Shown here: positions 23,016 to 55,239 of the stretch, one piece after another
How positions within the stretch are numbered: the first letter of the stretch is position 1
Layout of the letters: each line of letters opens with the position of its first letter
IMG/VR virus record: IMGVR_UViG_3300028008_001583
Location: 1 to 59,764 of that record
DNA length: 59,764 nucleotides
From: a virus
Direction: 5' to 3' (one strand)
Position numbers and translations under genes: made by a program
Notes under the pieces: model-generated
The model's input: only the letters and a program-made list of their open reading frames with translations
Told to the model about the DNA's origin: nothing
Databases searched by the model: none

Positions 23016-23040
23016 TTAGTAATAAAGGACACTAGATGAT
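22998..23040. promoter_or_regulatory. Inverted repeat flanking the -10, probable operator
   Basis: ATCATCTAGTGT at 22998-23009 and its exact complement ACACTAGATGAT at 23029-23040 are 12-bp arms 19 bases apart. The left arm fills most of the spacer and the right arm covers the region just before and including the ATG. The centre-to-centre distance is 31 bases, about three helical turns, which suits a dimeric repressor. Confidence 0.55.
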
Positions 23041-23617
23041 TAAAAATTTATTTCCAACTCCAGTAAAATTTTCTAATTTAACACTATCGACAGCTCTTTT
23101 ACAACAAGAAGTAAAAGAGCTGTTTTCTCTTGGCTACGGTAGTGATTTAAAAAGCGGAGTAAACGGAACGCGACTAGATATAACAAATGAGTTGTTAGAA
23201 GAAAAAAAGCCGCAAACTATTATTAAACTACTAACACACATACAAGAAGAAGTTTATAACTATTGCAAAGAAGTCAATATCAAACCACAGTATATAACAC
23301 AATCGTGGATAAATGTAAACCCAAAAAATTCTATTAATGTAAGACATAGTCATCCAGGAAGTGTGCTAAGTGGAGCATACTATATGAAATATCCTACAGA
23401 TGCAAACAGTCCTTTAAGCTTTTATCGCAGCAGAGAATTTTCAGATTATGGGTGGAGCTCAATGTCTTTAGATCAAAATATTGAGCTGCAATCAATTTTT
23501 AAGTATTTTCCTGTTGACAATGATCTAGTTATTTTTCCTAGTTTTGTAGAACATGATGTATTGCCTAATCAGAGTAACGAAGACAGGATTAGTTTATCCT
23601 TTAACACTTCACCGTAG
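23036..23617 (+). CDS. 2-oxoglutarate/Fe(II) oxygenase-like protein
   Basis: 193 aa. NVRHSHPGSVLSGAYYMK supplies the first iron-ligand region and LVIFPSFVEHDVLP the distal histidine, followed by DRISLSFN where the 2-oxoglutarate-binding arginine is expected. This matches the putative 2OG-Fe(II) oxygenases often found in marine phages. It would use 2-oxoglutarate and oxygen to hydroxylate an unknown substrate. It is the first gene after a sigma70 promoter and may be expressed before the structural genes. The second oxygenase at 37187 is of a different type. Confidence 0.75.
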   Translation: MIKNLFPTPVKFSNLTLSTALLQQEVKELFSLGYGSDLKSGVNGTRLDITNELLEEKKPQTIIKLLTHIQEEVYNYCKEVNIKPQYITQSWINVNPKNSINVRHSHPGSVLSGAYYMKYPTDANSPLSFYRSREFSDYGWSSMSLDQNIELQSIFKYFPVDNDLVIFPSFVEHDVLPNQSNEDRISLSFNTSP

Positions 23618-23675
23618 CCAGAATTAAAATTTTTTACATAAAATAAAAATATATACTATGCATAGAGGAGTATTT

Positions 23676-24650
23676 ATGAAGAAAGCGTTTTTTATTAACG
23701 GCGGAGCAGGCCGTGTATTATGCAGTATACCTGCATTAGAATATTACAAAGAAAATATTGATTCTGATGTAGTAATAGTATCCGAAGCATGGCACGAACT
23801 GTTTTTATCTTCGTCGCTTAGAAGTAATGTTTGGCCAGCTGGCAGTAAAGATTTATTTCAAACAGTTTTGAAAGATAGAGAAATTATAAGTCCAGAACCT
23901 TACAGACTAAATGCTTATTTTAATCAACGTGTTAATCTAATACAAGCGTTTGACATGTTAATTAATGATGTAGATGAAAATGTTGCTATAAAAGAAATAA
24001 ATTTAGATTTAGGAAAAGCAGATCAAATCTACGGTTATAATTTAATTAATCAAGTTAAAATGCAGATGAAAAAAGATAAAGCAATTGTATTTCAACCTTT
24101 TGGCAGCGGAGTAAAAATAGATGGTAATTTTGTATTTGATGAAAGCGGCAGAAGTTTTGAATTATCAGATGTATTTAGAATTGTTGATGAATTAGCAAAA
24201 GACTACGCAGTTATTTTAATGACTAATTTAAAAATACCAACTGATAGACAGATGGGTGCAGCAATTCCAGAAGACGCAGGATTATTACAATGGATGGGTA
24301 TTGTAAATGCAGCAGACTATTTCCTTGGCTGTGATAGTATGGGTCAACATTATGCACATGCATTAGGTAAGCCGGCTACTGTAGTAATAGGCTCTACATT
24401 TCCAGAGAATATAAGTTATCCTGGAAATAAAGACTTTACAATCATTGATAGTGGCAAAGAAAACAGAGTTTATGTACCATATAGAGTTACTTCTGATCCG
24501 GCATCAGAAAGACATAATGAAGATAATATGATATTAAGCGATGAAAATTATAAGAAAATAATGAAAAGTATAAAAGATAAATTAGGAAAACCTATTTCTA
24601 AAAATAGTTTTCCATTAGCTAATAAACCAAAAGTAATCGGAGAAAAATAA
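23676..24650 (+). CDS. Glycosyltransferase family 9-like (heptosyltransferase-type) protein
   Basis: 324 aa from the ATG at 23676, with AGAGGAG upstream. The ATG at 23658 lies before that site and is rejected. The fold of ADP-heptose:LPS heptosyltransferases is suggested by GGAGRVLCSIPALEYY at the N-terminus and by NAADYFLGCDSMGQHYAHALGKP near residue 215-240, followed by VVIGSTFPENISYPG. That region binds the nucleotide-sugar donor in GT9 enzymes. The ADP-heptose operon at 35-39 kb makes ADP-heptose an attractive donor. The acceptor is unknown. Confidence 0.7.
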   Translation: MKKAFFINGGAGRVLCSIPALEYYKENIDSDVVIVSEAWHELFLSSSLRSNVWPAGSKDLFQTVLKDREIISPEPYRLNAYFNQRVNLIQAFDMLINDVDENVAIKEINLDLGKADQIYGYNLINQVKMQMKKDKAIVFQPFGSGVKIDGNFVFDESGRSFELSDVFRIVDELAKDYAVILMTNLKIPTDRQMGAAIPEDAGLLQWMGIVNAADYFLGCDSMGQHYAHALGKPATVVIGSTFPENISYPGNKDFTIIDSGKENRVYVPYRVTSDPASERHNEDNMILSDENYKKIMKSIKDKLGKPISKNSFPLANKPKVIGEK

Positions 24651-24652
24651 CT

Positions 24653-26455
24653 ATGTCATCAGGATACATTTTAGGAATTTCAAGAGGCCATAATGCAGGC
24701 GTATGTCTACTTAAAGATGGCCAAATTGTTTTTGCTAGTGAAGAAGAAAGATTTACTCGTCACAAATACGACGGCGGCCCGTTGGCAACGATGATGAAAG
24801 TAAAAGAATACACTGATAAAATTGACGCTATTGTTGTGTGTCATACTACAGATTTAAAAGATGGACCTAAGATAGAATATACTGGTGATAATCTTTATTC
24901 TGGATTAGCTAGAAAAATGGGGTTGATTGATCGAAAAGCTGATATACATAGACACCCGCAGTGTATAGACGTCTCTAATCTTCACCATAAAGTACATGCT
25001 GCTTGTGCGTTTTATCGTTCTGGGTTTGACGAAGCTGTTGCTGTCGTTATCGACGGCGCAGGGTCAGCAATGACTGGAGAGACGCAAGACGGTCCTGTAA
25101 CATTATGGGAAGTAGAAAGTATATACGATTGCTCTTATCCAGACAATATTAAAACATTATATAAACATTATGGTTGTAGAGATCCTATTGTTACTGCTAT
25201 TAATCCTAAAACTAATGGAGAACAATTTGGCGATGCACCGGGCCATACATTTACATCGGTTGTTTCAGGACATGCAGGTATTACAAAAGTCTATGAAGCA
25301 GTAACTCAGTATTGCGGATTTCAAGCAATTGAAGCAGGAAAAACAATGGGATTGTTTCCGTACGGAGCCGAAAATGAAAATATTCCTAAATTGTTTACAA
25401 CAGATACAAAAATTCCATTATCTAATCGTACTATGATAGTTCCAACATATCCAAATGGTGCTATTGTAAATCATTATAATTATGATGAATTATCGCCTAG
25501 TCCAACGGGTGACGAGACTGATTGGACCGAATACCAAAATAGAAGAGATTTAGCGTATGCTTGTCAAACACAAACACAAGAACAATCACTTGATATAATA
25601 CTTTCCGCAGTTAAAATGTCTGGTAAGAAGAAAGTAGTGTTAAGTGGAGGATACGGATTAAATTGCGTAGCAAACTACTGGTATTTGAATAGATTAAATG
25701 AAGAAGGTATCGAATTGTTTGTTGAGCCTATTTCAAACGACGGTGGAACGGCTATTGGAGCAGCTCTATTATACTATCATTCTGTAGAGCAGTCAGAGTT
25801 AAGACGACCTAGAGAGATATATTTAGGACCTCAATACAATTATACTGACGATGAAATTAATAAACTTGCCGAAGAATACAATGCAATTGTTGAAGATGCA
25901 ACAGACGAAAAAGTTATTGAGTTAATGACAAATAAAAATATTGTAGCAATGTTTCAAGGCAGAGCAGAAAATGGTCCTAGAGCATTAGGCAATAGAAGCT
26001 TAATGTTTGATCCAACATTTGAAGACGGCAAAGACTTTGTTAACGAAATTAAACGTAGAGAATATTTCCGCCCGTTTGCTGGGTCTATTCTTGCTGAAGA
26101 TGCACACGAATGGTTTGACCTACGCGGTATGGAAGATAGTCCGCATATGATGTATGCTGTTAACTGTCAGCCAGGGATTGCTGAAAAAATTCCTAGCATT
26201 ATTCATGTTGACGGAACTTGTAGGATACAAACAGTTAATGAAGAAGAAAATCCTCTTTATTATCGTGTGATCAAAGCATTTAAAGAAAAGACAGGAGTAC
26301 CAATCATCTTTAATACTAGTTTTAACCTTGGCGGCGAGCCACTAGTTGAAACACTCGAAGATGCACTTTGGACCTTAAGCGAAAGTAAGATTGAATATCT
26401 ATATTTGCCTGAATACGGAAAACTTCTTACAGTCGGAAATTGGACAATTGCTTGA
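24653..26455 (+). CDS. Carbamoyltransferase, NodU/CmcH family
   Basis: 600 aa, the full length of the family, two bases after the previous stop. The N-terminal half has GISRGHNAGVCLL, EEERFTRHKYDG, HHKVHAACAF and VVIDGAGSAM, the Kae1-like ATP/carbamoyl-adenylate domain. The C-terminal half has GGYGLNCVANYW, NDGGTAIGAAL, GRAENGPRALGNRS and GVPIIFNTSFN, the carbamoyl-transfer domain. It converts carbamoyl phosphate and ATP to carbamoyl-AMP and transfers the group to a hydroxyl, usually on a sugar. Beside GT and methyltransferase genes it probably carbamoylates a sugar. Confidence 0.92.
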   Translation: MSSGYILGISRGHNAGVCLLKDGQIVFASEEERFTRHKYDGGPLATMMKVKEYTDKIDAIVVCHTTDLKDGPKIEYTGDNLYSGLARKMGLIDRKADIHRHPQCIDVSNLHHKVHAACAFYRSGFDEAVAVVIDGAGSAMTGETQDGPVTLWEVESIYDCSYPDNIKTLYKHYGCRDPIVTAINPKTNGEQFGDAPGHTFTSVVSGHAGITKVYEAVTQYCGFQAIEAGKTMGLFPYGAENENIPKLFTTDTKIPLSNRTMIVPTYPNGAIVNHYNYDELSPSPTGDETDWTEYQNRRDLAYACQTQTQEQSLDIILSAVKMSGKKKVVLSGGYGLNCVANYWYLNRLNEEGIELFVEPISNDGGTAIGAALLYYHSVEQSELRRPREIYLGPQYNYTDDEINKLAEEYNAIVEDATDEKVIELMTNKNIVAMFQGRAENGPRALGNRSLMFDPTFEDGKDFVNEIKRREYFRPFAGSILAEDAHEWFDLRGMEDSPHMMYAVNCQPGIAEKIPSIIHVDGTCRIQTVNEEENPLYYRVIKAFKEKTGVPIIFNTSFNLGGEPLVETLEDALWTLSESKIEYLYLPEYGKLLTVGNWTIA

Positions 26456-27089
26456 TAAAGATATTGTCGAAGTAAGATTAGATAAATTTTTAATCTACTC
26501 AGCAAATAAACTAGACGGATACGGTTATCAGACAGCAGCTGATGCCGTATCTTGCTTTAAACACTTTTCAAAAGGCAAAAAATATAACCATTGTTTAGAG
26601 TGGTGTTCTGGCCCAGGATATTTAGGTTTTGGAACACTTAGTCAAGGCCTTACAAAAAAACTTACTTTGTTAGATATACACGAACCGAATAAATTTATAG
26701 TAGAAAAAAGTATTGAAAAAAATGATCTTAATAATTGTGCAGACTTTATTTTATCAAACAATTTTCAACAACATTTACCTAGCAGAAAATATGATTTAAT
26801 TATAGGTAATCCTCCTCATTTTTCTTTTGCTCCTACATATGGTAATATCGATCCAAACGAACATAGAAAATATCAAGACAAGGACTGGAAGATTCATAAA
26901 GATTTTTTTGACACAGTTAATGATTTTATTACCGACGATGTTGATATCATCTTAATGGAAAACACAAAGGGCAGTAATCCAGATACATTTAAAGAAATGA
27001 TCAATAGTAATAATTTAAAGATTGAAAATTATTGTCTAAGTGTAACTTATCCTAACGACATTTGGTATTTGCATGTTAAAAAAGATTAG
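26448..27089 (+). CDS. SAM-dependent methyltransferase
   Basis: 213 aa from a TTG at 26448, which overlaps the carbamoyltransferase by 8 bases. An upstream TTG at 26391 would overlap by 65 bases and is less likely. LEWCSGPGYLGFG is the SAM-binding motif I, LLDIHEP follows it, and DLIIGNPPHF is the catalytic NPP motif of N-methyltransferases such as HemK, RlmG and DNA adenine enzymes. The substrate may be protein glutamine, RNA, DNA or a small molecule. Context suggests sugar modification, but the NPPHF motif favours an amide or base nitrogen. Confidence 0.72.
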   Translation: MLDKDIVEVRLDKFLIYSANKLDGYGYQTAADAVSCFKHFSKGKKYNHCLEWCSGPGYLGFGTLSQGLTKKLTLLDIHEPNKFIVEKSIEKNDLNNCADFILSNNFQQHLPSRKYDLIIGNPPHFSFAPTYGNIDPNEHRKYQDKDWKIHKDFFDTVNDFITDDVDIILMENTKGSNPDTFKEMINSNNLKIENYCLSVTYPNDIWYLHVKKD

Positions 27090-27790
27090 ATAAATTCTTC
27101 TTCAAACCCGGCAGTTAAATCTAAAACTGCTTTATTCCTTATTGTATTAAAAAGTTTTTCTGCTAAAATTGGGTGATTGCGTTCTGATAAATGTCCTTCT
27201 CTTGGATCTCTTCCTTTTATCTTTTTCATCCAATCTAACCATGTATCCATACTTTTACCCTTTACTTCATTAATACAAGGATATAATAAACTACCTTTAA
27301 TTTGTATATTATTATTGACAAAATACGGTTCATTTTCAAAACCTGGTAAAATTAATAAATTTAAATTTTCTTTTTCTTTTAAAAAGTTTATAGCATAAAG
27401 AAGCCATTGAAATCTTATTGCATTTTGTGGATTATCTGTTAAGTGTTTGTTGTATAGATCTATAGCTTTAGATTGATCTTTAGTAACGTATTCGTCAACA
27501 CCCATTAGAATGTTTCCAACACCTTCATTTTCAGGAAAAAACCACTGTCGATTAATCTGGGTTGTTATAAAAATAATTGTATCATTTTCTTTATCAATTA
27601 ACGGTGAGTTATCTATAAATTGAAAGTATATCCATTCGTTAGCAACACCGTCTTCGCAAATATTATAAAAATTCTCATGACCAAGTTTTTTAGTAAGACT
27701 CCACATCCAATGCCAGTCTTTTAACTTGTCACCATCTCGATGAAATGTACCATAGCTATCACCGAATATCCAAAGTTTTCCTGCATTCAT
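27086..27790 (-). CDS. SGNH/GDSL hydrolase-like protein
   Basis: 234 aa from the internal ATG at 27790, which places LWIFGDSYG at the N-terminus as in SGNH hydrolases. The block-I serine lies in GDSY, and the C-terminal HLSERNHPILAEKL gives the Asp/His-type block V (here an N-H pair). An Asn-rich middle follows. The family includes acetylesterases acting on polysaccharides. It converges on the methyltransferase, and the two stop codons share bases (27086-27089). It may trim O-acetyl groups from a glycan. This is inferred. Confidence 0.62.
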   Translation of the reverse strand: MNAGKLWIFGDSYGTFHRDGDKLKDWHWMWSLTKKLGHENFYNICEDGVANEWIYFQFIDNSPLIDKENDTIIFITTQINRQWFFPENEGVGNILMGVDEYVTKDQSKAIDLYNKHLTDNPQNAIRFQWLLYAINFLKEKENLNLLILPGFENEPYFVNNNIQIKGSLLYPCINEVKGKSMDTWLDWMKKIKGRDPREGHLSERNHPILAEKLFNTIRNKAVLDLTAGFEEEFI

Positions 27791-27814
27791 AATAATACTT
27801 ATATACAGTATGAG

Positions 27815-27822
27815 CATAAATA
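27815..27822 (+). promoter_or_regulatory. T4-type late promoter
   Basis: CATAAATA followed by CTATAA, 21 bases before the ATG at 27844. It lies in the divergent gap between the hydrolase and the structural gene. Confidence 0.75.
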
Positions 27823-35100: not shown

Positions 35101-35368
35101 ACTAGCAGTGGGCACAGGCACAGTAGAATTTACGTTTGTGCAACCACCATATGCACAGCCAGGTGAAACTGTATTCTCTTTTATTGCTACACCGGGAGAA
35201 CGCTCAACGCTTGATTTATCAGAATTGAAAGAACTTACAAACACACCACTAGGTGGACGAGGAACATATCCAAATGGTCCTGATGTGCTTGCACTTAATG
35301 TTTATAAAGTTGGTGGTGTTACAGCTAATGCAAATATTATTCTAAGATGGGGCGAAGCACAAGCCTAA
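29180..35368 (+). CDS. Very large virion protein with five beta repeats (2062 aa)
   Basis: The start at 29180 is close to the previous stop and probably coupled to it. Residues about 25-105 form the same helical module (N-x-SFI-x-x-E, C-ERDVGYVVDAY, D-L-x-x-GGN) that is inserted in the 1579-aa fibre. Residues about 700-1090 contain five repeats of about 90 aa with Y-x-x-G/N-D/N-x-I-x-I-x-G and P-A-N-D-L-T. The final 700 residues include EVTNEGPPGKLAA and YVDNEIMNFTG and look like a conserved tail or baseplate protein of marine myoviruses. No enzyme motif is seen. It could be a long fibre or tail-length element. Confidence 0.7.
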   Translation: MAKTQLKNYVFKPGIGAIDYVYPNAYSLLSANKSFIQKEATAWIQDQVDASATGFVGYTYNQAKCERDVGYVVDAYLKDLRYGGNENVIKTIRYYWDQDVAQVDGDRQPEIQTHTFISTLIRDYIFANSLYSASNSEVTQTVDTNTTVETTVQFTPTDASYTPTTGVMTLTIGTHSLAVGDEIHIAPGAITFTCLLDGGATTHPYPRATGVPNAKGRDPYYYAPLTITSVTGTTITMNVGISSDTSVHSFDSATTNGVTSGPSAKINTLAFNTVDTITNGLNGLPTLVPTGVGTVKVQGRWDLEQILLVTNTTSNEIIYNFSSPTAGGSITQKTDGVNKDPDFLKYLETTDAITTLTLNYNTRTHSSTDALQIFAEEIENGKSVVTTRPYDFGSDAIERMRVAQPLSMLDADFEYGLQPTKWAAIGTLRGYPSVYEVPGTDTPVLSVVTDASAGTEGIGQSQITVTTVGPHGFEPGTPITIKALEDSVSGAARAEGSFVIVEVPTNNSFTFFAKSKVGTVNPTTLSTTYTQLRKAGFYTGASIGQPEVTVVSNGSAGTLVAELDIASGSTVIPFDGPSPEVGAPLVNANIPEGSQVTSIIDTSAGGGDYITPVTIANINPGDLSFTVQDSTGIVDNLALDRGDGTAIYVTSVAGSTVNMSGAFTGAYVANTANYAIAPTAIVSSGTGALVNISSAGGTYTLDGLANQGDNYQVGDILLIQGNLLGGTSPTNDLTLRVLTLDSDTGIGTLELTGNAFDGTTTITNLTGVVVGNNGTDGKFDIVMLNNAYTADVASPDTSLGYIVNDVIKIPGNLIDPTAGTTPANDAYVTVTGIGAGGSITSVSVDGTAPDAQLQFFNPTNSTNGSGSGIIFTVYTNGTTYSVTVDPLNQGINYLPGNTITVTGDLLGGATPANDLTITVDNVGGGGEVTAQSIAGTAYNGRSSVNLPGSNVVGTGATFDVGLAGGTYTVTLTDGGDSYGAGQEILIPAGTTIPGTSPANDLTIAIDTVDAVATGTIGTITESGTAYGGTGTFNGVPTTLQPVSGNSFSVNISRANGTYGIALDNGGTGYAIGNTFRINGPQLDGLQPLNDITLVVSSIDVSTGEITAFTNTYESAAPGDVLTLISTVIVTDATTAPITRSSQITYGALATLEITLSNAHGLVPGNTFIVTASSDDGVNNHDLAAGSFFVTDIPAVNKLRYQARTTGTIDVTSGEILGILYPRPDSFFVHRPYDGGVQLGTGGPQHGAQAIRQSKKYIRYQSGKGIMYTTGALFAPSYDLRSLTADDVEVGSLITVTTDDNDHGVQAGGIVRILGVETPGYNSGPQTAVPPTFDYTVESVIDERTFTIRAQRRLGATTAILGFGSQMSVVAWHGATVRSGIFDDQNGIFWEFDGTQISVVQRTGTRQLAGTIALDIDENLVTGTNTRFTDQLKAGDRIIIKGMTHVVSHVNSQTECTITPDFRGVVNITGAKANLIVDKKTKQSDFNLDRLDGTGPSGYDIDIAKMQMIGIQYSWYGAGFIDFMLRGSDGNFVFAHRMRNSNVNTEAFMRSGNLPVRYEVTNEGPPGKLAAAMDASQDTAVLTDTSFFPDYGTIYVDNEIMNFTGNNKVDNILTGLTRGATFSNFQAGATRSYTASAATTHNDRTGVVLISQTITPLISHWGSAFITDGMFDDDRGYIFSYAETGVEVSTTKQSAFLIRLSPSVSNALVGDLGERELLNRAQLLLQGIEVTSDGVDTGNSNAPVVGGIVIEGVLNPQNYPLNPADIGWTTLSGVAQGGQPSFAQIASGGSVNWSTGEAATTATVSSQAAISINMDSGRYRSDRNRNLIWINANDYRNTFGTTSLAPVQGKTIINAGSYSNIQSGTTITGGYMNNSGDYGYFILSRNTTNNNNDRINAATANAYTIQSADIPLVDRNFAYFDKTSFDSSGAKIGTELSNGGSVSFPSNTLINSIDLVDFGGTEYYEVQFNQSFSGTLAVGTGTVEFTFVQPPYAQPGETVFSFIATPGERSTLDLSELKELTNTPLGGRGTYPNGPDVLALNVYKVGGVTANANIILRWGEAQA
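31290..32520 (+). repeat. Five tandem coding repeats of about 90 aa
   Basis: Units start near 31313, 31581, 31856, 32110 and 32386, spaced 268, 275, 254 and 276 bases. Each encodes a Y-x-x-G-D-x-I-x-I-x-G then P-x-N-D motif. The DNA has diverged between units. Confidence 0.7.
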
Positions 35369-35379
35369 AGGGCTTGTGC
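35357..35379. terminator. Bidirectional hairpin between convergent genes
   Basis: GCACAAGCC at 35357-35365 and GGCTTGTGC at 35371-35379 make a perfect 9-bp stem with loop TAAAG. The stop codons of both convergent genes overlap at 35365-35368 (CTAA), at the top of the stem. Neither side has a long T run, so termination may be partial. Confidence 0.65.
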
Positions 35380-35994
35380 AAACTCCCACAAGTTATCAAA
35401 GATTAATGTTTGTTTTTTGATTTGTTTGTAGACATGTTTGTTTAATTGTTTTTCAGTTTCCAAACCATATCCAGTTCGCACTAGTATTGGCTTTGCTCCT
35501 ATTTTATGAGCTGCTTTTAGATCACTCATTTTGTCACCTACAAAAAATCCCTTAGAAAATTTTATGTACGGATGTTCTTTTTCGCATCGCTTGAACATGC
35601 CAATATTTGGTTTAGCATATACATCATTTTTTCTACTACTTGCACTGTAGTATATTGCATCAATACTAGGACATCCTGCTTGGCCTAATAAATCTAACAT
35701 CTTATTGTGTACTTGATCTACATCTCCGGGAGTCATTAACCCCTTTTCAATACCGCCTTGGTTAGTAATAACTGCTATTCTATGACCTTTTGATCTTAGC
35801 AATGCTACTGCTTCTAAACTTCCAGGAATAGGTTGAAACATCATAGGATTAGTGACGTATGTTCCTAGGTCAACATTTAATACCCCGTCTCGATCTATAC
35901 CAATCACTGGCTGATTATAATCTTCATTGACTATGTTAGACTGTGTAGTATTATTTGATTCAACAAACGAACTGTCTAGTACACTTCTAGCCAT
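35365..35994 (-). CDS. gmhB: HAD phosphatase, GmhB-like (heptose bisphosphate phosphatase)
   Basis: 209 aa from the ATG at 35994. The HAD motifs are GIDRDGVLN (nucleophile and acid aspartates at 34 and 36), VITNQGG (motif II) and FVGDKMSDLKAAHKIG (motif IV). This order matches D-glycero-D-manno-heptose 1,7-bisphosphate 7-phosphatase. The cysteine-rich zinc loop usual in GmhB before the RKP motif is replaced by YSASSRKNDVYAKP and has no cysteines. An N-terminal Ser/Asn-rich extension of about 28 residues is also unusual. It is the last gene of the minus-strand operon and overlaps the cupin by 8 bases. Confidence 0.82.
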   Translation of the reverse strand: MARSVLDSSFVESNNTTQSNIVNEDYNQPVIGIDRDGVLNVDLGTYVTNPMMFQPIPGSLEAVALLRSKGHRIAVITNQGGIEKGLMTPGDVDQVHNKMLDLLGQAGCPSIDAIYYSASSRKNDVYAKPNIGMFKRCEKEHPYIKFSKGFFVGDKMSDLKAAHKIGAKPILVRTGYGLETEKQLNKHVYKQIKKQTLIFDNLWEFAQAL

Positions 35995-36382
35995 TTTCTG
36001 CCTTTTGTTTTTGACTATCACCGGGAGCAACTCTATAGTTGTCCTCTACGCTGTCTGCTGTACTAACTTCAGTAATGCTAGAACTACCTTGTAAGCAAAT
36101 AAGTCTATGAGGTTGTAATGGAGGATTGTGCCATACATCTCCTTCATTTAATTCTTTTTCATACATTCCAGCAGTAGTAGTATCAATCCATTGTACTTTA
36201 AATTTGCCAGTATTTACAAACCAAGTTTCGTCTTTTTCTTTGTGAAAGTGCATTGAAAACATTGCCCCTTCTTTTTCAAAGAACATAATTTTACCGCAGT
36301 ACTTGTCAGTAGATGCCCAAATTAATTCGTAACCCCATCCTTTTGGAACTACGCCCTGTAATCTAGTTGGTTCATTTTCCAT
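35987..36382 (-). CDS. Cupin-domain protein
   Basis: 131 aa. HFHKEKDETWFVNTG gives the cupin motif 1 (HxH and E), and GDVWHNPPLQPHRLICLQG gives motif 2 with its histidine. Such small cupins occur as sugar-nucleotide isomerases or epimerases of the WxcM/mannose-6-phosphate-isomerase type. Between HldD and GmhB it may act on a sugar in the same pathway, perhaps replacing a missing isomerase, but this is only inferred. It overlaps hldD by 11 bases and gmhB by 8 bases. Confidence 0.75.
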   Translation of the reverse strand: MENEPTRLQGVVPKGWGYELIWASTDKYCGKIMFFEKEGAMFSMHFHKEKDETWFVNTGKFKVQWIDTTTAGMYEKELNEGDVWHNPPLQPHRLICLQGSSSITEVSTADSVEDNYRVAPGDSQKQKAENG

Positions 36383-37190
36383 TAATATAATCCTCTATGC
36401 TTGTCCATTGCATATCTACTACACTATTTAAATTAGTTAAATTTGCACATGTGTATTCTTGATATTGACCTTTTAAATTTGCTGGCATCGGTATATAATT
36501 TATGCCAGCATTGTATTTGTTAGCAATAGTTTGTGCTACGGTTTCAAAACTTACAGGGTTGCCAGTACCAACATTGAATATACCTGATTGCCTTACATCA
36601 AACATTTTTTCGTGTAATTTGCAGATATCATCTACGCAAATAAAGTCTCGTTTATATTTGTCACTGTCTTCGAACAGTGTAATTACACTATCTTCTTTAG
36701 CTTGCTTTGTAAATTTAGTATAAGGACTCGCTTGATCGCCTTTGTGATTCTCGCCTTCGCCATACACATTGAAATATCTAAATCCTTGAATAATTATTTC
36801 AAACTCGTCTTGAAACTGTCCTAAGAATCTATCAAACAAATACTTTGACCATGCGTAAGGTGACTGCGGCAACAATGGCCCGTCTTCAGTAAAATGCTCT
36901 GTGGGTCCGTACACACTTGCACTAGATGCATATTGTAAATTAGTACCAAAGTTTTCACATACTTGTGCAAGCCTTACAGTAAACTCAAAGTTTTGTTCTA
37001 GTATTTGATTAACGTCAGTGTATGTAGTTGAACTAATTGCACCAGTATGTATGCACCAGTCGTAATCTTCTGTACTAGGGATGATACCAGGAGCCCACTC
37101 CCAGCCTTCTACTTCGTGTCCCTGTGCTTGCAAATATAATGCAATATTTGAACCAATGAATCCTTTGTGTCCTGTAACTAATATTTTCAT
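36372..37190 (-). CDS. hldD: ADP-L-glycero-D-manno-heptose 6-epimerase
   Basis: 272 aa short-chain dehydrogenase-type epimerase. GHKGFIGSN at 7-15 is the NAD(P) glycine motif G-x-x-G-x-x-G, SSASVYG follows, and Y112-x-x-x-K116 is the catalytic pair. The segment FRYFNVYGEGENHKGD and the later KRDFICVDDI are characteristic of HldD rather than of generic epimerases. It interconverts the D-glycero and L-glycero forms of ADP-manno-heptose. It is slightly shorter than the bacterial enzyme (about 310 aa). The start overlaps the oxygenase gene by 4 bases. Confidence 0.88.
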   Translation of the reverse strand: MKILVTGHKGFIGSNIALYLQAQGHEVEGWEWAPGIIPSTEDYDWCIHTGAISSTTYTDVNQILEQNFEFTVRLAQVCENFGTNLQYASSASVYGPTEHFTEDGPLLPQSPYAWSKYLFDRFLGQFQDEFEIIIQGFRYFNVYGEGENHKGDQASPYTKFTKQAKEDSVITLFEDSDKYKRDFICVDDICKLHEKMFDVRQSGIFNVGTGNPVSFETVAQTIANKYNAGINYIPMPANLKGQYQEYTCANLTNLNSVVDMQWTSIEDYINGK

Positions 37191-37816
37191 TTATTTTCCT
37201 CGAGTAGTTTTTTATATTTTTCACCCCATTGTTTTTTAAATATGGGACTTATTATATTATTATTACGTTCGTGTTCACTTTGTGGAGGCCCGCCAAATAT
37301 GTATCCTAATGTTACACGAGGCTCAACGTCATTTGTTGGCACACCTCTGTGCCACAAGTTACTAGGAAATATAACACAGCGATTATCTTTATAATCTATA
37401 TCACATATTTTTTCGCCGCCATGATCAGGAAAATCAGTCCAAAAATCCATTCCTGTGTCTCCAGAAATAAAATGTACCATAGTCCATGCTGGAGGCCCCA
37501 TATCTGCATGTACACCACCTACTAAAGTTTTTGTAGTTAGATTAAGTTGACATTGAACAAAGTGTAATGGTAGTACTTCGTCATCGTTGCTTAGTTTATC
37601 TCTAGAATCATTGAGTGCAGCAAAAGTTGCTTTGTACTCCCATGGTATTTCATGTAGACCAAATAGCGGCCATATTTTACTAAAAAAAGCGTTACCTACG
37701 TCAGGACCAACACCGTGGTGTTGACACGTTACTGGTATTGATAAAATATTTGTTTTAATAGATCTATATAACCATTCTGGTACAATATCATCGAAAACAA
37801 AAATATCACTAGACAT
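37187..37816 (-). CDS. 2-oxoglutarate/Fe(II) oxygenase
   Basis: 209 aa. GGVHADMGPPAWTMV carries the H-x-D iron ligands and CVIFPSNLWHRGVP the distal histidine. PRVTLGYIF supplies the arginine that binds 2-oxoglutarate. It therefore appears catalytically complete. Its place between hldE and hldD, with a 14-base gap and a 4-base overlap, suggests hydroxylation of a sugar intermediate or a host target made at the same time. No substrate can be read from the sequence. Confidence 0.78.
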   Translation of the reverse strand: MSSDIFVFDDIVPEWLYRSIKTNILSIPVTCQHHGVGPDVGNAFFSKIWPLFGLHEIPWEYKATFAALNDSRDKLSNDDEVLPLHFVQCQLNLTTKTLVGGVHADMGPPAWTMVHFISGDTGMDFWTDFPDHGGEKICDIDYKDNRCVIFPSNLWHRGVPTNDVEPRVTLGYIFGGPPQSEHERNNNIISPIFKKQWGEKYKKLLEENK

Positions 37817-37830
37817 TTAAGAAATTCCTT

Positions 37831-38970
37831 TCATTTACTATTCTTTATAATCTGCGTTGTTGAATATCCGCCTACTGTAGGTATAATATGCACATCAGTT
37901 AAATCATGTCCTACAACAGTTTCAACAGTATAATCTCCGCCTTTTACAATCAAGTTAGGCTGTATATGTTTAATTAACTCATAAGGAGTATCTTGTTCAA
38001 AAACGTGAACTTCATCTACCCAAGGTAGTATAGATATCTGTTCAACACGTTTTTCTATATTGTTTATTGGACGGGCGTTGCCTTTTAGGCGCTTTACGCT
38101 TGCATCTGAATTAAGCCCAACTACAAGTTTGTCGCCTAAACTACGTGCTTCTTTTAATAAATTAAAATGTCCTGTGTGCATAATATCAAACACACCGTTT
38201 GTAAAGATTACACGTTCTTCAATATCACTGCGTGTAAGTATATGTGTACCTACGTGCTGTACTGCACGTCTAGATCCTTTAATAGCAAGTTCTAAACATT
38301 GCGTATAACCATAATTCTTAGTTAAACCGTATACAAATGCAGCTAAGAAACAATCACCTGCACCAGTAACATCTGATACTTCTACTTGTGCAACAGGCAG
38401 ATTATACTCAACACCATCTATACTAGCAAGTACATTATCACCGGCATTAGTAGTAATAATATTACCTTGCCACTGACAAAACCCAAACTTAGTAAATTCA
38501 CTGTTATTAGGTTTTACTAACCATGCGTCTTTATATTGAGTTGCATGTTCTTTAGGATCTACAATAATCTTACAATCAAACTTATTAATATGTTCAATAA
38601 TTCTTAGAGATTCGTCTAGTACACCTTTGTTATAATCACTTAATATTACATAATCGTATTGTGAAAAGTCACTACGTAATACATTTCTTAGCACAGCAGA
38701 ACCGTCTGCATCTTTGTCATCGTCTATACGTGTAATATAATGTCCGTCACATATTATTCGTGTCTTAATACTACGTGGTTGATTTGTTTCAAATAATGTA
38801 ACATCAACTCCTAGACTTTTAAGATTTTCATATACAAGTCCAGCACCACCTAATGTTTTAACTTCGTGTTGATATTTGACCACAGGTACTGGAGCCTCAG
38901 GGCTTATACGTTCTGAAGTGCCATAAATATATTTGTCAACGATTACATCGCCAAAAACTAATACTTTCAT
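37831..38970 (-). CDS. hldE: Bifunctional heptose kinase / heptose-1-phosphate adenylyltransferase
   Basis: 379 aa fusion. The N-terminal part is a ribokinase-like D-glycero-D-manno-heptose 7-phosphate kinase, with GDVIVDKYIYG, RISPEAPVPVV, LGGAG and the catalytic VTGAGD near residue 205. The C-terminal part is a nucleotidyltransferase with FTNGVFDIMHTGH (HxGH motif) near 256-268 and GLNSDASVKRLKG. It is about 100 residues shorter than E. coli HldE. It is the first gene of the minus-strand operon and its ATG lies at the predicted +1 of a consensus promoter. It makes ADP-D-glycero-D-manno-heptose in two separate steps. Confidence 0.93.
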   Translation of the reverse strand: MKVLVFGDVIVDKYIYGTSERISPEAPVPVVKYQHEVKTLGGAGLVYENLKSLGVDVTLFETNQPRSIKTRIICDGHYITRIDDDKDADGSAVLRNVLRSDFSQYDYVILSDYNKGVLDESLRIIEHINKFDCKIIVDPKEHATQYKDAWLVKPNNSEFTKFGFCQWQGNIITTNAGDNVLASIDGVEYNLPVAQVEVSDVTGAGDCFLAAFVYGLTKNYGYTQCLELAIKGSRRAVQHVGTHILTRSDIEERVIFTNGVFDIMHTGHFNLLKEARSLGDKLVVGLNSDASVKRLKGNARPINNIEKRVEQISILPWVDEVHVFEQDTPYELIKHIQPNLIVKGGDYTVETVVGHDLTDVHIIPTVGGYSTTQIIKNSK

Positions 38971-50040: not shown

Positions 50041-50541
50041 ATGACTAAAAAATTAGAAGACCTATTAAACTTACCTGATTCTAAAGAAATTATAGAACAA
50101 GCAGAAGCACAGGAAGTTGAACAGTCTAAACACGATATAGAACGTGAAGAAACATTTCGTGATATTGCTGAATTTGACAAGATTACTGCTGCGTTACCTA
50201 GTGTTAAAGGGCTAGGCGATGCAGCTGATAAAGAGCTTAACGAAGTAGCTAACAAAGCAATGCAGGCATACGAAGATCTAATGGATCTAGGTATGAATGT
50301 TGAAAGTCGTTATAGTGGAAGAGTGTTTGAAGTTGCTGGCGGAATGTTAAAAACGTCTTTAGATGCAAAAACAGCAAAGTTAGACAAAAAATTAAAAATG
50401 ATTGAGCTACAGCTAAAGAAAGAAAAAATGGACAAAGATGGAAATGCCTCTGTTGGTGATATAGTAAACGGCGAAGGATACGTTGTAACAGATAGAAACA
50501 GTCTATTAGAAAAGCTCAAAGGCATGGATAAAGATAAATAA
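50041..50541 (+). CDS. 16: Terminase small subunit gp16
   Basis: 166 aa, the size of T4 gp16 (164 aa). It starts MTKKLEDLLNLPD and has the helical middle NEVANKAMQAYEDLMDLGMNVE, SRYSGRVFEVAGG and LKTSLDAKTAKLDKKLKMIE. The helical centre is the oligomerising region of gp16-type subunits. It regulates gp17 cleavage and ATPase. In this phage gp17 is not next to it: four genes, including a radical SAM enzyme, lie between them. The assignment is by size and pattern. Confidence 0.75.
   Translation: MTKKLEDLLNLPDSKEIIEQAEAQEVEQSKHDIEREETFRDIAEFDKITAALPSVKGLGDAADKELNEVANKAMQAYEDLMDLGMNVESRYSGRVFEVAGGMLKTSLDAKTAKLDKKLKMIELQLKKEKMDKDGNASVGDIVNGEGYVVTDRNSLLEKLKGMDKDK
50533..50540 (+). promoter_or_regulatory. 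T4-type late promoter
   Basis: GATAAATA overlapping the last codons of gp16, 27 bases before the ATG at 50567. Confidence 0.6.
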
Positions 50542-50566: not shown

Positions 50567-51124
50567 ATGAGATCATTTACAGAAATACTTACAGAGTCTA
50601 AAAAGACTTATGAATTTAAAATAGGCATAGCTGGAGAATGTCCAGAAGACTGCGTAGAAAAAATGGAAACTGCTCTAAAAAAATATGCAGTAGCTAATAT
50701 TACAACCGGTAAGAAGACGCCTATACAAGAACGTCCATTAGACTTTCCACAATTACAAAATATGGAAGTTACTTACTTTGAAGCAGAAGTAACCTATCCA
50801 ACTACTCCGCAAGTGCTGCAAGAATATTTAGGACAATGCTGCGGCATTGATCAAGCATATATTATTGTGCGTAATATGGGTGATCCGAGAGAAGAGTATC
50901 AAGAAACTAAAGATGATGCTCCATACGAATCAATGCTAGACAAAGAAGACATGGGCGGCGAAAGTGCTCAAGATTCAGTAGCAGGTAGTCGTGTAATGGA
51001 CTTATTAAAAGAATTAGAAACTGCTCGTAAAGAACGCGACCACGATGCAGCAGAAGGAGCACCAGTAGGCGAATCAGCTGACATTGGCGATACTGAAAAT
51101 ACTAAAGCGGTCGTGGGAGGTTAA
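50567..51124 (+). CDS. Hypothetical virion-associated protein
   Basis: 185 aa beginning MRSFTEILTESKKTYEF, an opening common to head- or core-associated proteins of marine T4-like phages. The middle has a ferredoxin-like alternation (YEFKIGIAGE, VEKMETALKKY, VTYFEAEVTYPTTPQ, AYIIVRNMGD). The C-terminus is strongly charged and disordered by composition. No catalytic motif is visible. A late promoter lies 27 bases upstream. It may be a prohead component. Confidence 0.6.
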   Translation: MRSFTEILTESKKTYEFKIGIAGECPEDCVEKMETALKKYAVANITTGKKTPIQERPLDFPQLQNMEVTYFEAEVTYPTTPQVLQEYLGQCCGIDQAYIIVRNMGDPREEYQETKDDAPYESMLDKEDMGGESAQDSVAGSRVMDLLKELETARKERDHDAAEGAPVGESADIGDTENTKAVVGG

Positions 51125-51128
51125 CACT

Positions 51129-51995
51129 ATGAATATGAAAAATTTAATTCAGCAAATGACTGATATTGAGAATTCAAAAAAAGAACAAATTAACGAAGCA
51201 GCATCAATTACTATTAGTGCAGAAACAGGCGCAGAAATATCAGATATGATTGCTTCTATGCAGGGTAATGCTGGCATGCAGTCTAAGCCAGCTTTGTTGC
51301 CACCAAGTTTAGGCATGCGCAGCGATATGGAAAAGTTTCGTACTGCAATGGACGATGATCCAAAAATTCCTGGTAAAGATGACGTCGATGGCGACAAAGA
51401 TTTACAAGCAGGACTAATTGGTGCACTAGCAGGCGGAGCATTAGGCTCAGCAGCAGGCGCCGCAACAGGCGCAACAGGAGCTATAGCAGCAAAAGGTGCA
51501 GCCGCAGGGGCCAAAGTAGGGTCAGGTATTGCTGGAGCAATGGGCAAAGGTATGTTAGGAAAAGCAGCTGGTGGAGCAATGGGTTCTAAAGTAGGCTCAG
51601 CTGTAGGTAGTGCATTACCAGGAGCAGCAGGCGCAGCTATTGGTGACAAAATGACTGGCGACACAGACGAAAGTTATGCTAACGAGCCTGATGCACAGTA
51701 CGGTGACACGAGCGATGCTATTCCAGATGGCAATGATTTAAATCGCAAGAAGAAAGCATACGCTGCTACACAAGATGGCGATAACCCAATGGCTGTTGAA
51801 AACATCAAAGCAACACTAATGGCAGCACTTGCTGAAAAGAAGATGCCTATGGGCGCAGGACCAGATGGTAAAAAAGGCACTGATGACGATAAGCCTGCTT
51901 TCTTAAATCAAAAGACTGGTGACAAGAAAAGCAAAGGCGGAAGCAAGCCTAAAAAAGGTGTAGTACCTCCACAGTTTAAGAAAAAAGGCAGTTAA
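51129..51995 (+). CDS. Glycine-zipper protein, virion-associated candidate
   Basis: 288 aa from the ATG at 51129. A longer reading from 51084 overlaps the previous gene. Residues about 95-185 are an extended Gly/Ala zipper (ALAGGALGSAAGAATGA, SGIAGAMGKG, SAVGSALPGAAGAAIGD), which forms membrane-active or pore-like helices in many proteins. The C-terminus is lysine-rich with KKGVVPPQFKKKG. I recognise no family. It could be an ejected protein or a prohead core protein. Confidence 0.6.
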   Translation: MNMKNLIQQMTDIENSKKEQINEAASITISAETGAEISDMIASMQGNAGMQSKPALLPPSLGMRSDMEKFRTAMDDDPKIPGKDDVDGDKDLQAGLIGALAGGALGSAAGAATGATGAIAAKGAAAGAKVGSGIAGAMGKGMLGKAAGGAMGSKVGSAVGSALPGAAGAAIGDKMTGDTDESYANEPDAQYGDTSDAIPDGNDLNRKKKAYAATQDGDNPMAVENIKATLMAALAEKKMPMGAGPDGKKGTDDDKPAFLNQKTGDKKSKGGSKPKKGVVPPQFKKKGS

Positions 51996-52008: not shown

Positions 52009-52365
52009 ATGGTAGCAGTAACAAGAGTAAACGGATTATTATGTACAGCTGGCACTATACACTCTGAAAGTGTTAAAGCATATTTAATTACAGTACAAGT
52101 TGCTGGTAATACAGATGTTGATTTAAGAGCAGAAGATGATGCAGTTGATGAAGCAGTAGAGCTAATTGTAAAAGAAGTTAATCCTCTGATGTTTTCTGTT
52201 AAAGATGATGCCTCAGGTGAAATTCATATTATTATGGACGTGAACAGTTCAGCGGCAGACATACAACAACGTATTAGGAATCTAGGTACAACAGTAGGAC
52301 CTAATAATGTTGATGTAACAGGCACAGATGTTGTAGAAGCAACTGGCTTAACCATTACTGGTTAA
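52009..52365 (+). CDS. Hypothetical virion protein
   Basis: 118 aa beginning MVAVTRVNGLLCTAGTIHSE, with TVQVAGNTDVDLRAEDD and a C-terminal helix-strand run SSAADIQQRIRNLGTTVG. It is acidic and probably compact. The family is not recognised. AAGGA precedes the ATG. The strong terminator at 52388 ends the transcript after it. Confidence 0.55.
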   Translation: MVAVTRVNGLLCTAGTIHSESVKAYLITVQVAGNTDVDLRAEDDAVDEAVELIVKEVNPLMFSVKDDASGEIHIIMDVNSSAADIQQRIRNLGTTVGPNNVDVTGTDVVEATGLTITG

Positions 52366-52387: not shown

Positions 52388-52414
52388 AATAGGCTCTTAG
52401 GAGCCTATTTTTTT
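52388..52414 (+). terminator. Rho-independent terminator
   Basis: AATAGGCTC/GAGCCTATT, a 9-bp perfect stem with TTAG loop, followed by a T run. It isolates the next gene on its own transcript. Confidence 0.92.
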
Positions 52415-52415
52415 C

Positions 52416-52423
52416 AATAAATA
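52416..52423 (+). promoter_or_regulatory. T4-type late promoter placed at the start codon
   Basis: AATAAATA, then TCAAT, then ATG at 52429. The predicted +1 is the A of ATG. Confidence 0.82.
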
Positions 52424-52428
52424 TCAAT

Positions 52429-53604
52429 ATGTCAAACTACTTTTTTAGCGAAAGCGATCTTACTCCGTTATATAATGCAGTTCCATCATTTATAGAAGAG
52501 ACTGTCTCGTTGTGCCATGTATGCTACAATCATTTGCCTGCATTAAAATATGAAAAAGATGGAAAATTATATCTTGTAAAATACTGCAAAGATCACGGTA
52601 TACATCATTATGTTATTGAAAATGATATAGACTTCTATCAAAGTTTAAATTGTGAATACAACAAGCCTTGGGACTTTAACGGCGGTGTTATGATCGAAGG
52701 AAGTGATAGATGCAATTTAGATTGTCCGCATTGCTATCATATTCCAAATAATAAAATACAAGATCCTGCACAAGAACTTTTAATGTCTCAAGTTGCAGAT
52801 ATTGAATCTAAAATGAGATGGCCGGGAGATCCCTTTTGGGTTGTGCTTTTAGCAGGTGCAGAACCTACTCTAAGAAAAGACTTTCCGTACCTATTAGAGA
52901 GAATAAAAACAGACTATAATAATACTATACAATGCTATGTAATGTCAAACGGAATAAAATTTGAAGATGTAAATTTTGTAAAATCGTCAAAATCTGCAGG
53001 ATTAGATAGTGTGTGCTTTGGTTTAAATCATCCTACATATAATAACAATATGATAATTAGAAACAAACAAGAACGTGCAGTTTATAATATTTTAGAAGAA
53101 GACTTAGGACTAAATTATCTTAGTTATACTATGAATAATTTTAACGAATTAAATGATATTATGCAAGAAATTTTATATAAAGGATGGACACCAACACATT
53201 TTAGAATTCGTTACGGAAGTGATATTGGAAGAAATACTGGACAAGAACGATTGTTTTTAAGTGATGTCTTTAAAAGTGTACAAAGATGGTGTCAAGATAA
53301 TAATAAAAGTTTTGAAATTATTGAACCGGCTGATAACAACATATATCACATAATGGTTAAAGTAGAAGACAAATATATAAGATTAATACAGTGGTGTGAC
53401 GAATACGATATTGATATGGAAAGTTTGAAATCAGGACCTTGGAGTGATTTTACGCCAGGCTCTATAACTAATTTTTTAAATCAAATTATTAGAAGAAATG
53501 CGTGGAAAAACAAAGGATTAACTCTTTTAGATAGCCCCCCAGAAAGATATCACATGAGACAAATACCAATAACTGATAAACTAGATTTAAAAAAGCTAAT
53601 ATAA
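52429..53604 (+). CDS. Radical SAM enzyme with N-terminal cysteine ribbon
   Basis: 391 aa. C95-x3-C99-x2-C102 (CNLDCPHCYH) is the radical SAM [4Fe-4S] motif, and AGAEPTLRKDFP is the usual GGEP-like SAM-binding stretch. Residues 29-56 hold C-x2-C-x20-C-x2-H, a small ribbon before the core. This architecture recalls the MJ0619/Tes group of radical SAM enzymes, but the match is by pattern. Chemistry could be methylation, C-C coupling or a peptide modification. Its own leaderless late transcript, between the terminase genes, suggests it is needed late. Confidence 0.85.
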   Translation: MSNYFFSESDLTPLYNAVPSFIEETVSLCHVCYNHLPALKYEKDGKLYLVKYCKDHGIHHYVIENDIDFYQSLNCEYNKPWDFNGGVMIEGSDRCNLDCPHCYHIPNNKIQDPAQELLMSQVADIESKMRWPGDPFWVVLLAGAEPTLRKDFPYLLERIKTDYNNTIQCYVMSNGIKFEDVNFVKSSKSAGLDSVCFGLNHPTYNNNMIIRNKQERAVYNILEEDLGLNYLSYTMNNFNELNDIMQEILYKGWTPTHFRIRYGSDIGRNTGQERLFLSDVFKSVQRWCQDNNKSFEIIEPADNNIYHIMVKVEDKYIRLIQWCDEYDIDMESLKSGPWSDFTPGSITNFLNQIIRRNAWKNKGLTLLDSPPERYHMRQIPITDKLDLKKLI

Positions 53605-53616
53605 TTTAACTTATTC

Positions 53617-53640
53617 AAATAGAGTCTACAGACTCTATTT
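53617..53640 (+). terminator. Hairpin terminator
   Basis: AAATAGAGTC/GACTCTATTT, a 10-bp perfect stem with TACA loop and a short T/C tail. It separates the radical SAM gene from gp17. Confidence 0.8.
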
Positions 53641-53645
53641 CTTTG

Positions 53646-53653
53646 AATAAATA
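53646..53653 (+). promoter_or_regulatory. T4-type late promoter placed at the start codon
   Basis: AATAAATA, then TTACT, then the gp17 ATG at 53659, which is at the predicted +1. Confidence 0.82.
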
Positions 53654-53658
53654 TTACT

Positions 53659-55239
53659 ATGGCAGCATCACTAGACGGCGTCTTAATTAAGAAAGCCAAT
53701 AAACAAGAAACTTATACAAACGAGCAAGTTGAAGAACTGCTGAAGTGCATGGATCCTGACGAAGGGTACTTACACTTTGCAAGAGCATTTGCATTTATTC
53801 AGCATCCCGTAAAAGGTAAGTTGTTGTTTGATCCTTATGAGTACCAATTACGTTTGATGCACAGCTACCATAGCTATCGTTTTAATATTAATATGATGCC
53901 TAGACAAACAGGTAAAACTACGTGTGCTAGTATATACCTTGCTTGGTATGCTATGTTTAATCCAGACCAAACTATTCTTGTTGCTGCACACAAATACACA
54001 GGTGCGCAGGAGATTATGTCACGCATACGTTTTGTGTACGAAACTTGCCCTGATCATATTAGAGCAGGTGTTACAAGTTACAACAAACAATCAATTGAAT
54101 TTGAGAACGGCTCACGCATTGTAGCGCAAACTACAACAGGTAACACAGGACGTGGTATGAGTATCTCGTTACTATATTGTGACGAGTTTGCATTTGTGCA
54201 GCCTAACATTGCGGAAGAGTTTTGGACTTCAATATCACCTACACTAGCAACTGGTGGCCGTGCTATTATTACAAGCACACCAAACTCAGATGAAGATACA
54301 TTTGCTACTATTTGGAAACAAGCAGAACAAAAGTTTGATTCCCACGGCAATGAGCAAGAACTAGGTATAAATGGATTTCATAGTTTTGTTGCTGAATGGC
54401 ACGAACATCCTGATAGAGATGACAAATGGAAAGAAGAAGAAATTGGTCGTATTGGCGAAGAGAAGTTTAGACGTGAATACGGTTGTGAATTCTTAGTATT
54501 TGACGAAACACTGATTAATTCAATTAAACTTGCTGTAATGGAGGGTGCAAACCCTATTTTAAATATGGGTCAAACTCGTTGGTATAAAAAGCCAACTAGT
54601 CAATATACATATGCTATTGCACTAGATCCTAGTATGGGTACAGGCGGAGACTATGCCGCGATTCAAGTTTTTGAATTACCTAGCTACGAACAAGTTGCTG
54701 AATGGCAACATAACCAAACTGCTATTCCAGGACAAATAAGAGTACTTGCAGACATATGTAAATACGTTGAGCAAGAAACAGGAAACACAAATGGCATATA
54801 TTGGAGTGTTGAAAACAACGGCATTGGAGAAGCTGCACTAATTGTAATTAATGACTTTGGAGAAGAAAACATTCCGGGACTGTTTGTAAGCGAACCTATG
54901 CGTAAAGGACATGTAAGAAAGTTCCGCAAAGGATTTAATACTACACACGGTACTAAAATTACAGCATGTAGTAGATTAAAAACAATGGTTGAAAATGACA
55001 AAATGACAATACATAGTAAGCCATTGATATCAGAACTCAAAGGATTTGTTGCCACAGGATCAAGTTTTCAAGCAAAGTCTGGAATGACTGATGATTTAGT
55101 TAGTGCTTCATTACTTGCATTACGAATGATGTCAGTACTCAAAGACTGGGATCCAAGAGTGTATAATACATTTACACAGGCAGAAGACTTAGAAGATTAT
55201 GAAGCACCTATGCCAATTTTTATAAGTACAAACTATTAA
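53659..55239 (+). CDS. 17: Terminase large subunit gp17
   Basis: 526 aa (T4 gp17 is 610). PRQTGKTT near residue 81-88 is the Walker A motif and LLYCDEFAFV near 172 the Walker B with catalytic glutamate. TSTPNSDED is the coupling motif. The C-terminal nuclease has ALDPSMGTGGDYAA near 321, SVENNGIG and MTDDLVSA, giving the RNase H-like acidic residues. It cuts the concatemer and pumps DNA into the head using ATP. The shorter length fits the marine T4-like group. Confidence 0.95.
   Translation: MAASLDGVLIKKANKQETYTNEQVEELLKCMDPDEGYLHFARAFAFIQHPVKGKLLFDPYEYQLRLMHSYHSYRFNINMMPRQTGKTTCASIYLAWYAMFNPDQTILVAAHKYTGAQEIMSRIRFVYETCPDHIRAGVTSYNKQSIEFENGSRIVAQTTTGNTGRGMSISLLYCDEFAFVQPNIAEEFWTSISPTLATGGRAIITSTPNSDEDTFATIWKQAEQKFDSHGNEQELGINGFHSFVAEWHEHPDRDDKWKEEEIGRIGEEKFRREYGCEFLVFDETLINSIKLAVMEGANPILNMGQTRWYKKPTSQYTYAIALDPSMGTGGDYAAIQVFELPSYEQVAEWQHNQTAIPGQIRVLADICKYVEQETGNTNGIYWSVENNGIGEAALIVINDFGEENIPGLFVSEPMRKGHVRKFRKGFNTTHGTKITACSRLKTMVENDKMTIHSKPLISELKGFVATGSSFQAKSGMTDDLVSASLLALRMMSVLKDWDPRVYNTFTQAEDLEDYEAPMPIFISTNY

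Follow-up and report, generated by a model that had tools for sequence, protein, structure and literature searches.

Gene organization upstream of the terminase large subunit

The window analysed here, a stretch of DNA of 59,764 nucleotides, comes from a marine T4-like virus of bacteria and carries a gene for a radical SAM protein directly upstream of the gene for the terminase large subunit (TerL). The features considered below are the following.

50041 to 50541, plus strand: terminase small subunit-like (gp16) gene (PHROG 445, E = 1.6e-4)
52009 to 52365, plus strand: resident slot gene of 118 amino acids, usually directly before TerL in relatives
52388 to 52409, plus strand: intrinsic terminator upstream of the cassette, hairpin and T-run (z = -4.7), resident and also found in the empty-site relative L184
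52404 to 52424, plus strand: left copy of an imperfect 21-bp repeat (terminator end and promoter) bounding a 1230-bp insert
52416 to 52423, plus strand: putative late promoter AATAAATA of the radical SAM gene, an octamer 5 nt before the ATG
52429 to 53604, plus strand: radical SAM gene, 391 amino acids, complete ORF with ATG start, predicted Tes/HMPTM-like fold (PF04055, PF23545, Tes match and predicted structure)
52513 to 52596, plus strand: rubredoxin-type metal site C29X2C32X20C53X2H56 (three Cys in 41/41 relatives, H56 in at least 90%; Tes spacing)
52711 to 52734, plus strand: radical SAM cluster motif C95X3C99X2C102 (invariant, 41/41)
52855 to 52863, plus strand: G143-A144-E145, a GGE-like SAM-binding motif (invariant, 41/41)
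53617 to 53640, plus strand: terminator-like hairpin behind the radical SAM gene (z = -4.8), with a weak T-tail (TTTCTTT)
53634 to 53654, plus strand: right copy of the imperfect 21-bp repeat
53646 to 53653, plus strand: putative late promoter AATAAATA of the TerL gene, same motif and same 5-nt spacing to the ATG
53659 to 55239, plus strand: terminase large subunit gene (gp17-like), downstream neighbour (PHROG terminase large subunit, 5.7e-121)

The initial annotation placed the radical SAM gene between gp16 and gp17, and this holds loosely: TerL follows directly, but three genes (50567-51124, 51129-51995 and 52009-52365) intervene on the gp16 side. The last of these, the 118-aa gene, was considered as a dedicated substrate and rejected, since it is a common resident of the slot in phages without the radical SAM gene; nor was it seen beside the radical SAM gene in three relatives (L002, L003 and L013). 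An SGNH-like partner was likewise discarded, because the gene just upstream of the radical SAM gene in L002, assigned as SGNH-like by motif (Pfam gives DUF6071, below cut-off), has no match to the candidate in the window (27086-27817).

Two other groups of genes were observed elsewhere in the window. Positions 35365-38970 on the minus strand encode a HAD hydrolase, a cupin, an NAD epimerase and a PfkB-cytidylyltransferase fusion, which resemble an ADP-heptose-type sugar pathway, while a 2OG-FeII_Oxy_5 protein and a carbamoyltransferase are encoded at 23036-26455, behind the baseplate and tail-fibre genes.

Both hairpins flanking the radical SAM gene are more stable than all of the 200 shuffled sequences against which they were measured. 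The idea that terminators bound the gene on both sides is supported in this respect, but the downstream hairpin has a weak T-tail and is confined to the window species and a 99% identical copy (L001). The late promoter proposed at the ATG is supported as well: 17 of the 27 occurrences of NATAAATA in the window lie at ORF starts, compared with 0/27 in the reversed sequence. Four late genes (starting at 47972, 52429, 53659 and 55258) have NATAAATA only 4-5 nt ahead of their ATG. With promoters ending 5 nt before the ATGs of both the radical SAM and the TerL genes, the late mRNAs would be nearly leaderless, and the motif suggests late expression of the radical SAM gene.

Metal sites and conservation of the enzyme

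The description of the gene product as a complete radical SAM protein with an N-terminal cysteine ribbon is confirmed by Pfam profile searches of the 391-aa protein, which matched PF04055 (Radical_SAM; E = 6.6e-12, 46 bits against a cut-off of 29.5) and, above cut-off, PF23545 ('HMPTM N-terminal zinc ribbon'; E = 1.3e-11). The CX3CX2C motif that marks the superfamily lies inside the radical SAM domain, and the G143-A144-E145 motif presumably contributes to SAM binding, as in the superfamily at large. Loss of the metal-site cysteines among homologues had been named beforehand as evidence against the annotation; instead, across 41 diverse relatives exactly six cysteines are invariant, and these are C95/C99/C102 and C29/C32/C53. 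A further C-terminal set (C288/C323/M330/C339), a possible counterpart of the C-terminal auxiliary [4Fe-4S] cluster with labile Met in Tes, is complete in 21/41 relatives; it reads Cys-Cys-Met-Ser in the window clade, with Ser at 339, and is degraded in deep branches. The family as a whole therefore does not share an auxiliary cluster, and for the window enzyme one is doubtful. The residues conserved past the core in the 41 relatives are mostly polar (N200, H201, Y204, Q214, T234, R259, R268, H307, D324, Q352 and R356).

Codon substitutions show purifying selection on the radical SAM gene (dN = 0.046 and dS = 0.99 against the gene for the 91% identical L002 protein, with dS near saturation); the corresponding values for TerL in the same pair, with dS again near saturation, are 0.101 and 1.23. 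The enzyme is conserved, and it is very probably functional.

Relationship to Tes and other radical SAM families

The initial annotation called for a structural comparison with Tes (MJ0619), and Tes, the archaeal tetraether lipid synthase, is the nearest relative of solved structure. Among PDB sequences it gives the top match (phmmer 3.6e-19; profile E = 3e-31), and the AlphaFold2 model (pLDDT 89.2, pTM 0.90) matches Tes (7TOM) with Z = 27.8 and 3.8 Å over 334 residues at 21% identity. The next family in the model comparison is MoaA (Z = 16), and the single-barrel fold lies near MoaA and BlsE; a BFVD search returned distant radical SAM proteins only. The rubredoxin-type iron site of Tes, C9X2C12X20C33X2H36 (PMC9433317), has the same CX2CX20CX2H spacing as the N-terminal site of the viral enzyme, and Tes (GDGT-MAS; PDB 7TOL and 7TOM) also shares with it the overall fold and the CX3CX2C motif.

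However, the two proteins differ in several respects. The solved Tes chain has 526 residues compared with 391 in the viral enzyme, and the N-terminal auxiliary [4Fe-4S] cluster of Tes (C73, C77, C80 and a His) is absent from the latter: the segment that holds it is an insertion of Tes relative to the profile. The C-terminal cysteine set is incomplete in the window clade in comparison with Tes. Tes is also marked by hydrophobic lipid tunnels, and on this point the viral sequences show mostly polar conserved residues. Membership in Tes was therefore rejected, on account of the missing N-terminal cluster and a score of 73 bits against a cut-off of 450 for the Tes equivalog NF045702. The best NCBIfam match is the TrsS radical SAM (seleno)protein (NF045646, E = 1.8e-21), but the viral enzyme scores 76 bits where 490 are required and is no member of that family either. 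Because the N-terminal cluster is missing and the conserved residues are mostly polar, we do not file the protein as a lipid synthase; judged from its sequence and predicted structure, it is a Tes-fold radical SAM enzyme distinct from Tes.

An optional cargo slot before TerL

In L184, a close relative, the flanks are the same but the 1230 bp between them are missing. On the left, L184 matches the window through the upstream terminator, and on the right its promoter and the start of TerL correspond to the TerL promoter of the window; this contig of 63 kb, which may be incomplete, has no radical SAM gene. In 49 of 71 scored cases among phages whose TerL is 85-100% identical, TerL is directly preceded by the usual structural-region gene, while in other phages of this group the slot holds a protein of 112-116 aa, one of 88 aa or an SGNH-like protein. 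It is filled in L120 by a 2-oxoglutarate (2OG) oxygenase, 2OG-FeII_Oxy_5 (PF13759), and in L154 and L177 by DUF6445 proteins, which are oxygenase-like by their HxD...H pattern alone (that of L154 below the Pfam cut-off). Of 80 loci tested, 45 have a hairpin and then a late promoter ahead of TerL, and 73 show the promoter pattern there. In L108, a Sulfotransfer_2 protein (PF03567; 518-1096) occupies another cargo slot, located between the genes for head closure and the gp16-like protein, and small genes in L111 and L171 resemble it.

The arrangement of terminator, late promoter, gene and terminator that was first read as an independent transcription unit is thus retained as to promoter and hairpins, and refined by the empty site: by its sequence organization it is an inserted, moron-like cassette of about 1.2 kb (late promoter, gene and terminator) in a slot for optional cargo. 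The terminator-boxed layout is accounted for by the insertion and has no link to packaging. The earlier statement that the enzyme is not a normal packaging factor is borne out by L184, and relatives with an empty slot argue against any core packaging role.

Distribution in viruses and radical SAM islands

A search with an alignment query retrieved 116 relatives from IMG/VR viral contigs. No relative was found by tblastn among 50,697 annotated phage records, plasmids gave weak partial matches only, and short-peptide-pattern scans of about 85,000 cellular genomes revealed no full-length relative, although such absence is not proof. The family, as far as these sequence searches reach, was found only in viruses and appears to be virus-restricted; our literature search found no paper on it. 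In the tree, the window gene forms one clade with L002, L003 and L013 (100/99), in all of which it lies just before TerL. The group that contains this clade has no other member next to TerL, and its fork order is left open by the tree.

More distant relatives (35-56% identity) occur mostly where radical SAM genes abound, with 9-15 such genes per contig in most large contigs tested (G012, with three, is an exception). A frequent neighbour in these islands, c3, is probably a 2OG oxygenase, given its conserved HxD...H...R set and a model that matches 2OG oxygenases (top Z = 9.9); it lies at most four genes from the family member in 14/37 island-type loci. Other neighbours include a B12-binding radical SAM protein, a Trp halogenase, a class III aminotransferase and a TauD oxygenase. 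One phage, G019, combines a 92% identical TerL and an empty slot with a distant member (34%) inside an island of 13 radical SAM genes. In G022, from the same TerL group, there are 18 radical SAM genes, and its match to the window family is only weak. In five contigs (G006, G007, G013, G019 and G022; L091-L099, L267 and L268) the islands comprise 9-18 radical SAM genes, alongside numerous 2OG-oxygenase-like genes and B12-binding radical SAM genes; Trp halogenase is present in some of them, with five copies in G006.

Proposed function and alternatives

We propose that the locus is a moron-like late cassette encoding a virus-restricted radical SAM enzyme for C-H tailoring of a polar substrate, perhaps a virion or glycan target, an explanation to which we give about an even chance. 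The cassette would probably have reached the gap before TerL through recombination in which the terminator/late-promoter modules repeated in this phage group served as partners. From the superfamily chemistry we infer that the [4Fe-4S] cluster bound by C95/C99/C102 would split SAM, and that the resulting 5'-deoxyadenosyl radical would abstract a hydrogen atom from a substrate that is polar and not a lipid. The second metal site, C29/C32/C53/H56, may be structural or an electron relay. The gene would be transcribed late, together with TerL and the structural genes, and the enzyme would accordingly act during assembly. By analogy with the 2OG oxygenases in the same slot and beside the family in islands, C-H tailoring is the most likely activity; this timing and these oxygenases favour virion or glycan tailoring. 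Both the substrate and the benefit to the phage are guesses, the favoured target being an adsorption component of the virion or a glycan that this component carries or binds. Several points speak against the explanation as a whole: most cargo in the slot is, as far as known, non-enzymatic, the DUF6445 proteins of the slot are oxygenase-like by motif alone, no peptide-binding domain was recognised in the enzyme, and the N-terminal ribbon is common to lipid synthases.

The strongest alternative, possible but on the unlikely side, is a small-molecule enzyme making a one-step change to a host metabolite, or performing one step of a natural product-like phage pathway that is complete in the islands and reduced to a single gene here. 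No recognised peptide-binding domain was found in the enzyme, and together with the island enzymes (Trp halogenase, aminotransferase, B12-binding radical SAM and TauD proteins) this keeps a small-molecule substrate in play, as does the fold near MoaA and BlsE. However, the lone-gene clade lacks these partners near the gene, and a 120-kb contig of this clade (G002) has one radical SAM gene in all.

A Tes-like enzyme that, late in infection, joins or alters the alkyl chains of membrane lipids of the host seems improbable: Tes is by far the closest relative in structure and sequence and has the rubredoxin-type site in common, but the missing auxiliary segment, the incomplete C-terminal set and the low equivalog score count against it, and the polar conserved residues argue against an alkyl chain as substrate. 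Still more improbable is a nucleotide or nucleic-acid enzyme, such as a viperin-like one whose modified nucleotide blocks competitors, or a tRNA or DNA modifier. It draws on a weak pVip match (E = 3.1e-7, 28 bits) and on viperin folds at Z of about 13.8, but the match (residues 93-184) covers the common radical SAM core only, MoaA, HydE and peptide enzymes score alike, and the viperin family NF038283 gives 25 bits against a cut-off of 180. To our knowledge, the N-terminal ribbon is no part of viperin. A packaging or terminase factor has virtually no chance, as only the position directly before TerL speaks for it, and it is refuted as a core function by the clean empty site; absence of the gene from most phages with 85-95% identical TerL and relatives located far from the terminase genes also speak against it.

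The original suggestion of a late product that modifies virion protein, lipid or DNA therefore survives in part: virion protein (or glycan) is possible, lipid is disfavoured and DNA lacks support. The tailoring explanation may also be extended: radical SAM and 2OG enzymes, exchangeable and confined to viruses, would form a toolkit, present as islands or as single late cassettes, with which aquatic T4-like phages chemically alter either their adsorption proteins or the glycans that those proteins encounter. We consider this extension rather unlikely, but if true it would represent a new kind of post-translational chemistry of virions. The analysis defines a conserved family of radical SAM enzymes, seen here in viruses only and without parts of the machinery of lipid synthases, along with a natural pair of insertion and empty site in related phages; together they make it a testable question what a phage gains from a late radical enzyme. 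So far no function is attached to the radical SAM genes noted in marine phages, and the simplest case in which to look for one is the lone gene.

Comparison with known systems

The cassette resembles phage morons in that an extra gene separates two genes that adjoin one another in a relative (L184), and in that the gene is flanked by its own promoter and terminator, here recognised by motif and fold only. Classical morons belong to temperate phages and are expressed in lysogens, and a moron is expressed independently of the regulatory cascade of its phage. The window cassette differs in having a late promoter in a T4-like phage, and since the late-type motif probably ties it to the regulatory cascade of the phage we use the term 'moron-like'.

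Pelagimyophages have radical SAM cassettes, published without a function, in their host recognition cluster (PMC7029224). By their published description these are likewise optional in marine T4-like phages; however, they adjoin tail fibres, whereas the window gene is a lone late gene before TerL. The 2OG-Fe(II) oxygenases of cyanophages (PMC3037559) differ from the radical SAM enzyme in fold and chemistry, but they too are optional oxidative enzymes of T4-like marine phages, and the slot of L120 holds an oxygenase of this kind.
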